A stretch of 64,000 bases of DNA, taken from contig NZ_CANLRL010000002.1 of the NCBI RefSeq assembly GCF_947493595.1, positions 248,001 to 312,000 of the forward strand. The letters run 5' to 3'. Each line of letters begins with the position of its first letter. Within the stretch, counting starts at the first letter, position 1. The notes below the pieces were generated by a model. The model was not told where the DNA came from. It made no database searches and saw nothing but the letters and a program-made list of their open reading frames with translations. The DNA comes from an uncultured Shimia sp. GTDB lineage: Bacteria; Pseudomonadota; Alphaproteobacteria; Rhodobacterales; Rhodobacteraceae. Below are positions 42,796-59,842 of the stretch, in pieces. A program made the translations under genes and the position numbers.

Positions 42796-43625
42796 CCCAG
42801 AACCACGCGTCGGGTTTCGTCATCCACCGCGGGACGGCGCCCAAACCAGCGTTCAAAACCGGGAACCGCTTGATGCAGCAACATGCCCAATCCATCCACG
42901 GTCACACAGCCAATCTCATTGGCTGTGCGCAGGAAGTTTGTGGTCAACGGCGTATAAACCAGATCGGTCACCACGGTTTCCTTACGCAGCCCATCCATCG
43001 GCACACGCAACTCTGATTTACCGGTCATACCCAGAGAGGTAGTGTTCACCAACGTAGCGCCTTCTTCCAGAATATTACCCGCCTGCACCCACTCAACAAC
43101 TTTCACCCGCGCGCCAAAGTCTTCACGAAGCTTATCTGCCCGCACACGCGTACGATTGGTCAACAAAATCTCCGGCGCCCCGGCATCGAGCAACGACGCC
43201 ACAACTGCCCGCGCGGCGCCACCGGCACCCAATACAACTGCTGGCCCAGAAGAGGCATCCCATTCCGGCGCGCCTTGACGCAGGTTTTCAATAAACCCAT
43301 ACCCATCGGTATTGTCACCCAAGATACTACCATCATTGAGAAAGATCAGCGTGTTCACCGCCCCAATCAGCGTTGCGCGATCCGTGATCTGGTCCACAAA
43401 CTGCATTACCCGCTCTTTATGCGGGATCGTCACGTTGCAGCCGACAAACCCCATCTTTGGCATCGCCTTCAAAACATCGCCGAGGGCGTCCGCCTCGACC
43501 TCTAGCGGCACATAATGTCCGGCAATGTCATAGGTCTTCAGCCAATGCCCATGCAGGACCGGTGATTTTGAGTGCGCAATCGGGTTCCCGATCACACCCG
43601 CTAAAGGAATTGACGGCAATGTCAT
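42792..43625 (-). CDS. aroE: Shikimate dehydrogenase
   Basis: 277 residues. Substrate motif GNPIAHSKSPVLHG, NVTIPHKERVM, NTDGYGFIENL, and the NADP site GAGGAARAVVASLL. Reduces 3-dehydroshikimate in aromatic amino acid synthesis. Overlaps maf and coaE by 4 bp each. Confidence 0.97.
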   Translation of the reverse strand: MTLPSIPLAGVIGNPIAHSKSPVLHGHWLKTYDIAGHYVPLEVEADALGDVLKAMPKMGFVGCNVTIPHKERVMQFVDQITDRATLIGAVNTLIFLNDGSILGDNTDGYGFIENLRQGAPEWDASSGPAVVLGAGGAARAVVASLLDAGAPEILLTNRTRVRADKLREDFGARVKVVEWVQAGNILEEGATLVNTTSLGMTGKSELRVPMDGLRKETVVTDLVYTPLTTNFLRTANEIGCVTVDGLGMLLHQAVPGFERWFGRRPAVDDETRRVVLG

Positions 43626-44221
43626 TGTGGCAGTTCTCCCCGTGTCGTCAGAAACGACAGAATTTCTACAAGTGGCATGCCAAGGACCGTAAAATAGTCC
43701 CCATCGATCTTATCAAACAGCCGCACACCTTCTTCTTCCAACTTATACCCGCCAACCGAATGGCGGATGCTGTCAAAGTTGCGATCCAGATAGCCCTCAA
43801 GAAAGTCGTTGCTGAATTGCCGCATGAACAACCGTACAACCCCCACATGACGCCAAAGCGGTTCGCCATTCTGATAGATCACCGCCGCTGATAACAACAT
43901 GTGACGCTGACCACGCAGCAACAGCAACTGATTGCGCGCATCATCGACGCTGGCAGGCTTGGAAAAAATCGTGCCCTGAAAATCCAGCACCTGATCGCAC
44001 CCTAAAACCAGCGCCTCCGGCCGTTTCAAACTCACCTTTCGCGCTTTAGACTCCGCCAAAGCGTCTGCCACATCCCGGGGTGTGGCCCCCTCTGCCTGCA
44101 AAGATCGCTTGATCATTTCCTCATCTACCCGTGGCTTAACGGTTTCGTAACCAACTTTGGCTTTAGATAGGAGCTGAGCCCGTATCTCGGAGCCTGAAGC
44201 AAGGATCAGGGGTGCGGTCAT
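43622..44221 (-). CDS. maf: Maf-family nucleoside triphosphate pyrophosphatase
   Basis: 199 residues starting MTAPLILASGSEIRAQLL. The Maf signature here is ASGSEIR in place of the common ASxSPRR, as in other alphaproteobacterial members; ESKARKVSL, GCDQVL and GDYFTVLGMPL complete the fold. Removes pyrophosphate from non-canonical or modified nucleotides. The ATG abuts a perfect DnaA box at the edge of oriC, and no ribosome site is visible; a longer in-frame GTG start would run 87 bp into the origin and is unlikely. Confidence 0.93.
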   Translation of the reverse strand: MTAPLILASGSEIRAQLLSKAKVGYETVKPRVDEEMIKRSLQAEGATPRDVADALAESKARKVSLKRPEALVLGCDQVLDFQGTIFSKPASVDDARNQLLLLRGQRHMLLSAAVIYQNGEPLWRHVGVVRLFMRQFSNDFLEGYLDRNFDSIRHSVGGYKLEEEGVRLFDKIDGDYFTVLGMPLVEILSFLTTRGELPQ

Positions 44222-44229
44222 GTGGATAA
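44221..44229 (-). other. Perfect DnaA box
   Basis: TGTGGATAA, the complement of TTATCCACA. Its first base is the A of the maf start codon on the minus strand. Confidence 0.75.
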
Positions 44230-44403
44230 ATCCGTGGAGAAAGGAAGGAACTTCTTTGGAGTCCTTTCTGGAAACTTCTGTGAGGTTTTGCAAGCTGGGG
44301 AAACTCACCCCCGTCTCACGGAAATCCCCCGATTTTCTGCACGGTGGACGGGGAAAACTCTGCCTGTGGGAGGAATCACCTGCATACCGGTTTCTCCACG
44401 CAG

Positions 44404-44412
44404 TTACCCACA
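44404..44412 (+). other. DnaA box (one mismatch)
   Basis: TTACCCACA, one change from TTATCCACA; immediately preceded by the weaker TTCTCCACG copy at 44392-44400. Confidence 0.65.
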
Positions 44413-44510
44413 GTCACACAGCTGTCACTTTTCCCTCAAGTCACTGAAATTATTATACCCTTTAAACTTTCTCACCAGATGTTGATACAGATCAGAGCGG
44501 CCCATTCAGA

Positions 44511-44519
44511 TGTGGGTAA
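44511..44519 (-). other. DnaA box (one mismatch)
   Basis: TGTGGGTAA, the inverted twin of the 44404 box, 18 bp before the next box. Confidence 0.65.
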
Positions 44520-44536
44520 GTCCTAGGGAAACTCAA

Positions 44537-44545
44537 TAATCCACA
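44537..44545 (+). other. DnaA box (one mismatch)
   Basis: TAATCCACA, the box nearest the AT-rich tract (about 20 bp away), where initial unwinding would be expected. Confidence 0.6.
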
Positions 44546-44565
44546 GGATTGGACGTCCCTACTTA

Positions 44566-44603
44566 ATCATCATCCTTTTCTATATATATTTATTTATTAT
44601 AGA
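44566..44603. other. AT-rich putative DNA unwinding element
   Basis: Contains TATATATATTTATTTATTAT (44581-44600), by far the most AT-rich run in the window, at the hemJ-proximal end of the origin. Confidence 0.65.
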
Positions 44604-44635
44604 GAGGGTCCGGCTTCGATCAGGATCAAACCACC

Positions 44636-45085
44636 ATGAGTTACTTTCTCGTCGATATTTATCCTTACGTGCTTTCTCTGCACATCATCGCAGTGATCAG
44701 CTGGATGGCAGGTATTTTTTATCTCCCGCGTCTCTTCGTCTATCACGCAGAGCGGGCAGAGAAGGGCGATCAACTCGACGAAACTCTGAAGATCATGGAA
44801 TTTAAGCTTCAACGCTACATCATGGCCCCTGCAAGCATTGTGGCCTGGATCGCAGGTCTCACGCTTGTGTTTATACCTGGGGTGGTCGATTGGTCTGCAA
44901 TCTGGCCTTACACCAAAGCATTTGGCGTGATTTCCATGACGGTGTTTGATCATTGGCTGATGATTATGCGGAAGAAATTTGGCCGCGATGAAAACAAACT
45001 CTCCGGTCGCCAGTATCGCATGATGAACGAAGTTCCGACGGTTTTGATGGTCCTGATTGTTGTCTCCGTCGTTGTGAAATTCTGA
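44636..45085 (+). CDS. hemJ: HemJ-type protoporphyrinogen IX oxidase
   Basis: 149 residues, four membrane helices. LHIIAVISWMAGIFYLPRLF with its conserved histidine, FKLQRYIMAPASIVAW and FRMMNEVP-like YRMMNEVPTVLMV identify the UPF0093/HemJ family, which oxidises protoporphyrinogen IX in bacteria lacking HemG and HemY oxidases. It is the first gene right of the origin and the position that hemE holds in Caulobacter. Ribosome site AGGA lies 12 nt upstream. Confidence 0.93.
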   Translation: MSYFLVDIYPYVLSLHIIAVISWMAGIFYLPRLFVYHAERAEKGDQLDETLKIMEFKLQRYIMAPASIVAWIAGLTLVFIPGVVDWSAIWPYTKAFGVISMTVFDHWLMIMRKKFGRDENKLSGRQYRMMNEVPTVLMVLIVVSVVVKF

Positions 45086-47803: not shown

Positions 47804-47819
47804 TGTTTCACGTGAAACA
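47804..47819. other. parS centromere site overlapping the mnmG start
   Basis: TGTTTCACGTGAAACA, a perfect copy of the 16-bp ParB-binding site. It spans both candidate mnmG start codons. About 3.2 kb from the origin and 3.3 kb from parB. Confidence 0.93.
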
Positions 47820-49674: not shown

Positions 49675-50312
49675 TGTCTTGCCCTGACCATATCGAATCC
49701 AAGTTGAACGTTTCACGTGAAACATTGACTCGCCTTGAAATGCTCGCGGATCTGCTGGTGAAATGGAACCCGCGTATCAACCTGGTGTCCAAGTCCACGC
49801 TCAACGACCTCTGGTCGCGGCATATCCTGGATTCGATTCAAGTTTTACGTTGTGCGCCCCAAAATGTCGGCCATTGGGTGGATATCGGCAGTGGCGGCGG
49901 CTTCCCAGGCTTGGTTGTGGCGCTGATGGCCGCAGAGCCGGAAGCTCCGAAAAAGGTCACGTTGATCGAGAGTGACCAGCGTAAATGCGCGTTTTTGCGC
50001 ACTGTTCTGCGCGAAACCGGCGTGAAAGCGTCTGTTGTGACCGAACGCATTGAGCGTGCCGTGCCGCAGGAAGCGGATGTGTTGTCAGCACGGGCTTTGG
50101 CCGATCTCACACTGCTGTGTGAATTTGCGGAACGTCATTTGCAGACCACCGGCACCGCCGTGTTTCCAAAAGGAGCCCGTTGGCAAAAAGAGCTGCAATC
50201 CGCACAGAAATCGTGGTCATTTGATTACGAAGTGGTAAAAAGTATCACGGACCCAGAAGCGGTCATTCTGAAGATCGGAGAGCTCAATCGTGTCGGATCC
50301 CACACGCCCTGA
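49674..50312 (+). CDS. rsmG: 16S rRNA (guanine527-N7)-methyltransferase
   Basis: 212 residues. [18 protein letters not shown] is the SAM site, with [15 protein letters not shown] before it and [15 protein letters not shown] after. The segment NVSRETL near the N-terminus is written by a parS sequence. Ends 23 bp inside parA. Confidence 0.95.
49709..49724. other. Second parS site, inside rsmG
   Basis: CGTTTCACGTGAAACA, one base from the perfect 16-mer, with the full GTTTCACGTGAAAC core. It encodes NVSRET in RsmG. Confidence 0.9.
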
Positions 50313-51111: not shown

Positions 51112-52005
51112 ATGGCAGACAAGAAAAAACAGCGTGGTCTTGGCCGCGGTCTCAGCGCTCTCATGGCGGATGTGACGGAAGATACATCTCGACCAGACGC
51201 AGGCGCGGCGCCGCGTCGCGCGGATCTTGTTGTGCCGATTGAGCGTATTGAGCCCAACCCGGATCAGCCACGGCGTGATTTTACGCCGGAACAACTCGAC
51301 GATCTTGCAAACTCCATTCGTGAGAAAGGGGTGATTCAACCTCTTATCGTGCGCAAGAAGCCTGGCGATCGCTATGAAATTGTCGCCGGTGAACGCCGCT
51401 GGCGGGCGTCCCAAATGGCACAACTGCACGAGCTGCCGGTTATTGTACGCGAGTATGATGATACCGAGGTGCTCGAAATTGCGATCATCGAAAACATCCA
51501 ACGGGCCGATCTGAACCCAGTCGAAGAGGCAATGGGCTACCGCCAGCTGATGCAGAAGTTTGGCCATACGCAGGAAAAGGTATCTGAGGCGCTTGGTAAA
51601 AGCCGGAGCCACATTGCCAACTTGATGCGTCTGCTCAATCTGCCGGATGATGTGCAGGTTATGTTGCGTGAAGGTCACCTGTCGGCCGGTCATGCTCGCG
51701 CCCTGGTGACCACAGACAACGCATCTGAGTTGGCTCGTAAAGTGGTGAAGGACGGTTTGTCGGTACGGCAGACGGAAAAACTGGCGAAAAAAACAGGCTC
51801 TCTCGTCGAACAAAATAAAAAATCTCGACCAAAGACCCATAAGGACGCCGACACAGTCGCGCTAGAAGGCGATCTTTCGGCCAATTTGGGCATGAAAGTT
51901 TCCGTAGATCACGTTTCCGGCGGAGAAAACGGAAAAATTACTATTACTTATCAAACCCTTGATGAGTTGGATGAATTGTGCCGAGTTTTGTCGTCTACGA
52001 ATTAG
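51112..52005 (+). CDS. parB: Chromosome partitioning protein ParB
   Basis: 297 residues behind AAAGGAGG. N-terminal GLGRGLSALM, the CTPase/ParB box GERRWRASQMA and ENIQRADLNPVEEAMGYRQL, the helix-turn-helix ALGKSRSHIANLMRLLNLP and a C-terminal dimer domain with the usual TYQTLDELDELCRVL. Its stop overlaps the convergent DUF454 gene by 11 bp. Confidence 0.97.
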   Translation: MADKKKQRGLGRGLSALMADVTEDTSRPDAGAAPRRADLVVPIERIEPNPDQPRRDFTPEQLDDLANSIREKGVIQPLIVRKKPGDRYEIVAGERRWRASQMAQLHELPVIVREYDDTEVLEIAIIENIQRADLNPVEEAMGYRQLMQKFGHTQEKVSEALGKSRSHIANLMRLLNLPDDVQVMLREGHLSAGHARALVTTDNASELARKVVKDGLSVRQTEKLAKKTGSLVEQNKKSRPKTHKDADTVALEGDLSANLGMKVSVDHVSGGENGKITITYQTLDELDELCRVLSSTN

Positions 52006-59169: not shown

Positions 59170-59709
59170 ATGACTTGGAAAACACTATCGACAAAAAGTC
59201 TACTCAATCGGCCGCCCTTTTTGGAAGTGCAGCAGGAACAAGTGGAGATCAGACCGGGTCATGTGGTGGATGACTTCTATCAGATCCGTTTGATGGATTT
59301 TGCAGTTGTCATTCCCTTTTTGAACGATGGGCGTGTCGAAATGATCCGTCAGTACAAACATGGCCCGGCCCGCGAAGTTCTTGGTTTTCCGGCTGGGCAT
59401 GTGGATTCAGGAGAGGATCCTGAAGCCGCCGCGCGGCGTGAGCTCTTGGAAGAAACCGGGTTGCAAGCCGATACGTTGGTGCATTTGGGCTCGTTTGTGG
59501 ATCACGGTAATCAACGTGTGTGCCACGGGCATTACTTTGTTGCGCCGCATTGCCGTCGTGTCACAGAGCCCAACCCAGGTGACTTAGAAGATTTTGCATA
59601 TGAAGCGCTTACACCAGCTCAAATTGAAACAGCTATTCGGTCTGGCGAGGTTGGCGTGATGCACCACGTGGCGGCCTGGGGCCTGTGGAAAATACAATGC
59701 TCAGCCTAA
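59170..59709 (+). CDS. NUDIX hydrolase (ADP-sugar diphosphatase-like)
   Basis: 179 residues from ATG behind AGAAAGG. Complete Nudix box GHVDSGEDPEAAARRELLEE then TGL. The upstream MIRQYKHGPAREVLGFPAG segment resembles ADP-ribose/ADP-sugar pyrophosphatases (NudF/ADPRase type). Substrate is inferred only from that similarity. Confidence 0.88.
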   Translation: MTWKTLSTKSLLNRPPFLEVQQEQVEIRPGHVVDDFYQIRLMDFAVVIPFLNDGRVEMIRQYKHGPAREVLGFPAGHVDSGEDPEAAARRELLEETGLQADTLVHLGSFVDHGNQRVCHGHYFVAPHCRRVTEPNPGDLEDFAYEALTPAQIETAIRSGEVGVMHHVAAWGLWKIQCSA

Positions 59710-59821
59710 ATTGAGCGGAAATCAGTTAGTTCACAACCTACCTGATGCAGGACAATTTCCGGGTGGCCAGCATTCACGCGTAGCGATGTTGTCACACTAA
59801 AGGACAACTCGGCTTACAGCC

Positions 59822-59842
59822 TGTGGAAAACTGTGTGGAAAA
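59822..59842 (-). other. Tandem DnaA-box-like sequences upstream of gspD
   Basis: TGTGGAAAA occurs at 59822-59830 and again at 59834-59842; the complement TTTTCCACA differs by one base from the DnaA box. Spacing is 12 bp. The 235-bp gap (59710-59944) otherwise holds a weak GTTGTC/GACAAC repeat (59788-59808) and no gene. Confidence 0.4.

Follow-up and report, generated by a model that had tools for sequence, protein, structure and literature searches.

Gene order at the maf-hemJ locus

The locus lies on contig C2 (707,322 bp) of a 4.28-Mb draft genome in 23 contigs, which a tree of MnmG sequences places within the Shimia clade. The window, meaning the whole 64-kb stretch of DNA that was analysed, corresponds to C2:248001-312000, and positions given without a contig prefix refer to it. 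The genes maf and hemJ enclose an intergenic gap with an A+T content of 54%, compared with 43% for the contig (Table 1). According to NCBIfam, one flank encodes DnaQ, CoaE, AroE and a Maf-like protein, and the other HemJ, Rho, MnmE, MnmG, RsmG and a ParA-like protein. DnaQ, CoaE, AroE, Rho, MnmE, MnmG and RsmG score above the family cut-offs, and the matches of HemJ (136.2 versus a cut-off of 138.05), Maf (110.2 versus 117.15) and ParA (113.7 versus 180) fall below them. An earlier note on this DNA had placed a gap between maf and hemJ at these positions, with dnaQ-coaE-aroE-maf on one side and rho-mnmE-mnmG-rsmG-parA on the other; the open reading frames and family scans agree with it on both points, the names maf, hemJ and parA being supported by matches below the cut-off. 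No Rfam family was found in the 64-kb window at the gathering threshold.

Table 1. Positions in the window of the features in and around the maf-hemJ gap.
Feature	Position	Strand	Remarks
maf	43622-44221	-	left border of the gap
maf-hemJ intergenic gap, very probable oriC	44222-44635		414 bp; skew minimum, DnaA-box cluster, conserved order and length
hemJ	44636-45085	+	right border of the gap
DnaA box	44221-44229	-	perfect TTATCCACA; shares one base with the maf start codon
GANTC site	44259-44263		GAGTC
GANTC site	44373-44377		GAATC
DnaA box	44404-44412	+	TTACCCACA, one mismatch
DnaA box	44511-44519	-	TTACCCACA, one mismatch
DnaA box	44537-44545	+	TAATCCACA, one mismatch; directed toward the A/T tract
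AAT-CAT-CAT, putative DnaA-trio variant	44565-44573	+	
CATCATCCTTT	44568-44578		invariant in 18 Shimia-clade rows; single occurrence in contig C2
A/T tract, probable DNA unwinding element	44576-44601		50-bp stability, A/T run
parS	47804-47819		perfect TGTTTCACGTGAAACA; within the start of mnmG
parS-like site	49709-49724		one mismatch; within rsmG
parB	51112-52005		ORF named by position; tblastn matches at the same place in relatives

Of 531 relatives in a HemJ search we used the best 80, the titles of which mostly name Rhodobacteraceae in the wide sense. The order aroE-maf-gap-hemJ-rho is found in 79 of these best 80 loci, with gaps of 359-452 bp. The remaining locus, from Paracoccus sanguinis (L025), is without a maf match at the origin, and there aroE adjoins the gap; it was excluded from the gap counts.

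The earlier note had singled out hemJ, rather than hemE, as the border of the gap. The border is indeed hemJ, but it is not a peculiarity of this genome, in which hemE sits on contig C6. No hemE was found at any of the best 80 of the 531 relative loci, most of which cover 16 kb around hemJ, whereas in other alphaproteobacterial families, where HemJ gave 111 matches in 105 of 142 genomes, 25 of the best 30 loci (fragments of up to 3.4 kb) carry hemE upstream of hemJ and in the same orientation. Because of this difference between the two sets, we regard the absence of hemE from the hemJ side as a trait of the sampled Rhodobacterales, for which, as far as these sequences indicate, hemJ is the normal border of the gap.

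Replication signals and the location of the origin

DnaA boxes were scored against TTATCCACA, counting sites with 0 or 1 mismatch. The gap contains one perfect box and three with a single mismatch, in both orientations, exactly as the earlier note described. At the density of contig C2, where 707,322 bp contain 135 such sites including 4 perfect ones, a stretch of 414 bp should have only 0.08; the Poisson probability of four or more is ~1.5e-6. Of the 79 relatives, 77 could be compared at the left box (44221), two gapped rows having been set aside, and 71 of them keep it with no more than one mismatch; the box at 44537 is present with at most two mismatches in 70 of the 79. Contig C2 holds another cluster of four box-like sites, at 59496-59842 of the window, and therefore a cluster of boxes is by itself not decisive for an origin. 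Each site of this other cluster has one mismatch and lies on the minus strand; together they stretch from the last part of a NUDIX-like ORF to the gap that precedes a secretin-like ORF (NUDIX-like and secretion-secretin names assigned by eye); the DNA at 59640-60000 matches 3 of the 31 genomes searched, our own included.

The cumulative GC skew of contig C2, which represents 707 kb of the 4.28-Mb genome, has its minimum at position 44746 (C2:292746), 111 bp past the first base of hemJ. The check that the earlier note had proposed, a skew minimum at the gap as opposed to one near dnaA, thus came out in favour of the gap on this contig. A lesser dip near C2:100000 counts against the origin reading. 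Two related genomes were sampled on a larger scale. For Shimia biformata, where 40 stretches of 20 kb were taken along a 3.1-Mb contig, the sampled minimum falls in 310.5-330.5 kb and the skew has risen by the next sample, at 388 kb, and the two bracket the maf-hemJ locus at ~366.5-366.9 kb. On the closed chromosome of Pseudooceanicola spongiae (60 samples of 20 kb) the sampled minimum is the sample starting at 3.056 Mb and the maximum lies at 0.946 Mb; the locus, at 3.214 Mb, is two samples (~0.15 Mb) away from that minimum, a point against the reading, and in the sample holding the locus the local minimum, at 3,213,991, lies within the gap. Among the relatives, the local skew minimum is at most 1 kb from the start of hemJ in 56 of 75 long loci, and more than 1 kb from it in the other 19, which again speak against the reading (the count covers 75 of the best 80 loci, five short or maf-less ones being excluded).

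The least stable 50-bp window of contig C2 begins at 44558, within the gap. The gap also has an A/T-only run at 44581-44601, the sole run of at least 20 bp in the 707 kb of the contig; the earlier note had recognised the AT-rich tract and its A/T-only run, giving the length as 20 bp, and the actual length is 21 bp. Only two 16-mers within two mismatches of TGTTTCACGTGAAACA, which we take to be the parS consensus, occur in contig C2, both of them 3-5 kb from the gap.

The skew minimum, the cluster of boxes, the stretch of lowest stability on contig C2, the parS sites and the conserved anatomy all support what the earlier note had proposed, and on the strength of these sequence features we conclude, with a probability of about 95%, that the maf-hemJ gap is the chromosomal oriC of Shimia. 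The gap might instead be a divergent promoter region and nothing else, its boxes serving to regulate maf and hemJ or to titrate DnaA, with the origin elsewhere. Such a role would suit the position of both genes, which begin at the gap edges, and has a parallel in the other box cluster of the window, which sits upstream of an ordinary gene; it leaves the skew minimum at 44746, the unstable DNA and the nearby parS without explanation, however, and a simple scan of 44100-44750 returned no sigma-70-like promoter and no other promoter- or terminator-like site. We consider it very improbable. Even less credible, in our judgement, is an origin at dnaA (C2:42399), at ~42 kb of the contig and some 250 kb away. 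Contig C2 has its second least stable 50-bp window there, at ~C2:41596, and single box-like sites occur at C2 41652 and 41008, but the cumulative skew drops steadily through dnaA with no extremum, and the surrounding 6.5 kb contain just 2 boxes; the course of the skew and the low number of boxes led us to discard this candidate. The unstable window near dnaA perhaps belongs to an autoregulated dnaA promoter. A plasmid replicator was set aside as well, as a blastn comparison with 72,556 PLSDB records gave no match.

A conserved element beside the A/T tract

In the 18 aligned Shimia-clade rows, 64 of the 414 gap columns are invariant. They form four runs of five or more: CATGTGGA at the left DnaA box (44219), CGTGG (44233), TAATCC (44537) and CATCATCCTTT (44568), the last located between the final DnaA box and the A/T tract. 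With 11 columns, CATCATCCTTT is the longest of these runs, a length that none of 10,000 column shuffles attained, the longest run in them being 8. The same element is the most informative 12-column stretch over the 79 relatives (1.50 bits versus a mean of 0.58).

The surrounding elements are arranged in the order box (44537, plus strand), spacer with CCC-TAC, trinucleotides, CCTTT and A/T tract. A published search rule for DnaA-trios, as stated in the available part of its source, calls for at least three NAN trinucleotides at a spacer of 0-16 (PMC8287927). In our sequence the box TAATCCACA, within two mismatches, points toward the trinucleotides, and AAT-CAT-CAT supplies three of the NAN type; the spacer measures 19 nt in the window, which is longer than the rule allows. 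Because the NAN requirement is lax, the weight rests on conservation. An A occupies the middle of at least three of the four aligned trio positions in 70 of the 79 relatives, and of all four in 43 of 79, and the box ends 16 nt before the first trio position in 62 of 79 and 17 nt before it in 17 of 79. Judged by these alignments, AAT-CAT-CAT, together with CATCATCCTTT, looks like a variant of the DnaA-trio in which 5'-CAT-3' stands for 5'-TAG-3'. Two relatives (L027 and L044) carry a tandem pair of DnaA-box-like 9-mers ahead of the trio element; Shimia has a single box and a longer spacer at this site.

It is also conceivable, with a likelihood that we put only just short of an even chance, that the gap is the oriC but that CATCATCCTTT is no DnaA-trio, being instead the site of another protein (for helicase loading or control of hemJ) or a part of the unwinding region that works independently of the box. 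The 19-nt spacer of the window would then need no reconciling with the range in the available text of PMC8287927, nor 5'-CAT-3' with the canonical 3'-GAT-5', and the CCTTT that follows the trinucleotides is conserved too, which trios do not explain. Set against this, box, spacer, at least three NAN trinucleotides and A/T-rich DNA occur in Shimia in the identical order and orientation as in the basal unwinding system, as far as the accessible portion of its description goes (PMC8287927); that system has 5'-TAG-3' where Shimia has 5'-CAT-3'. The middle A and the 16- or 17-nt distance kept among the relatives likewise argue for a trio.

On the reading of CATCATCCTTT as part of a trio variant, DnaA-ATP would bind the boxes at 44221, 44404, 44511 and 44537, and a DnaA filament would grow from the box at 44537 onto single-stranded AAT-CAT-CAT. 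The filament would open the A/T tract, where the replicative helicases would be loaded, and replication forks would depart in both directions. CtrA would not be expected to silence the origin in Shimia by way of a full TTAA-N7-TTAA site; the timing of initiation would be set by DnaA activity, and possibly also by GANTC methylation.

The wider occurrence of the arrangement was assessed with the pattern ATCCAC-N10-24-CATCATCCTT, counted irrespective of a maf or hemJ neighbourhood. Of 198 family genomes, 25 contain it, at 26 sites in total; the reversed control occurs in none of the 198. CTAC lies in between at 18 of the 26 sites, and the remaining 8 may be due to chance. The exact pattern is missing from 173 of the 198 genomes and is therefore a signature of only part of the family.

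Comparison with known origins and control of initiation

With a cluster of boxes, a GC-skew minimum on contig C2 and an A/T-rich predicted unwinding element, the locus has the features of a DnaA-dependent oriC and is very probably an oriC of an ordinary, already known kind. The oriCs of 101 Rhodobacteraceae strains have been predicted by Ori-Finder (Kopejtka et al., 2019; PMC6699656). Those predictions, so far as the available sections of that study describe them, have the GC-disparity minimum, the DnaA boxes and the nearby parAB in common with Shimia; flanking genes and base-level anatomy do not appear in those sections, and the present strain is not known to be one of the 101. The Cori of Caulobacter, as described in the available part of its report (PMC1914354), resembles the Shimia gap in that the DnaA boxes lie within a gap of ~400 bp or more. 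Its borders in that account are hemE and COG1806, whereas those in Shimia are hemJ and maf, and it has five CtrA sites and one IHF site, whereas the Shimia gap contains neither a full CtrA motif (TTAA-N7-TTAA) nor an exact IHF motif. The neighbours on the hemE/hemJ side are common to the alphaproteobacterial class and are shared by Cori and Shimia alike. No member of the COG1806 family (PF03618) was found in our genome. The exact IHF motif searched for, WATCAANNNNTTR, is present in 11 of the 79 relatives when only exact matches are counted.

To this known kind the analysis adds the anatomy at base level, a conserved CAT element and a CtrA motif with a patchy distribution. We found no description of the latter two at these origins in the literature covered by our search, whose scope did not extend to supplements and most subscription journals. 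The analysis would place the origin of the genus Shimia and make the interval between maf and hemJ the usual origin address among the sampled relatives.

The earlier note had reported two GANTC sites in the gap, and both are there. As evidence for an origin they were dropped: two sites against 0.52 expected are not above chance (P ~0.10), and 18 of the 79 relatives have none. Control by GANTC methylation is possible, and the number of sites gives no indication of it.

The absence of a full CtrA site from the gap, also pointed out in the earlier note, holds, and extends to all 17 of the 17 Shimia-clade relatives when the full TTAA-N7-TTAA motif is considered. The genome itself encodes CtrA (NF045991, 429.2 bits versus a cut-off of 350), and has one match to the GcrA family and one N6/N4 methyltransferase match, the latter no more than a candidate for CcrM. 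In the Rhodobacterales studied, loss of ctrA is without negative effect on growth or viability, and an influence of CtrA on replication has been shown in some of them, according to the available part of PMC8116508. For Ruegeria sp. KLH11, the accessible text of PMC3692519 indicates that CtrA probably has no part in cell-cycle control. The suggestion that initiation in Shimia may be controlled differently from Caulobacter fits the lack of the full motif throughout the Shimia clade, and has to be seen beside a genome that does encode CtrA, a GcrA match and the N6/N4 methyltransferase match; from the motif searches we infer that direct control by CtrA is probably absent at the Shimia origin.

Full TTAA-N7-TTAA motifs are present in 15 of the 79 relatives, and in 11 of these the motif stands next to the left DnaA box, 22-24 bp inside the gap (L022, L026, L028, L029, L035, L039, L040, L047, L056, L057 and L074). 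In the MnmG tree the carriers of this fixed-place motif are placed in a Roseovarius clade and among Sulfitobacter/Roseobacter, and its distribution takes 2 changes versus a shuffled mean of 8.8, on a tree built by a quick method from 77 rows with 10 of the 11 carriers, the count covering the rows of the compared groups. Two gains would fit this distribution, and so would one gain with losses.

We tentatively propose, at somewhat worse than even odds, that Rhodobacterales origins open by means of a variant DnaA-trio and that direct control of the origin by CtrA depends on the lineage within the Roseobacter group. The variant trio would consist of repeats of 5'-CAT-3' with CCTTT behind them, at a distance of 16-19 nt from the last box; the lineages would differ in having the CtrA motif by the left box, as in Roseovarius and Sulfitobacter/Roseobacter, or none, as in Shimia. 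If this is true, the Roseobacter group would offer a natural experiment on the gain and loss of CtrA origin control. The proposal can be tested, since it predicts that DnaA opens the origin via the CAT trios and that CtrA binds it only in the motif-bearing species of the Roseobacter group. In the four other relatives with a CtrA-like motif, the motif is found at other positions in the gap.
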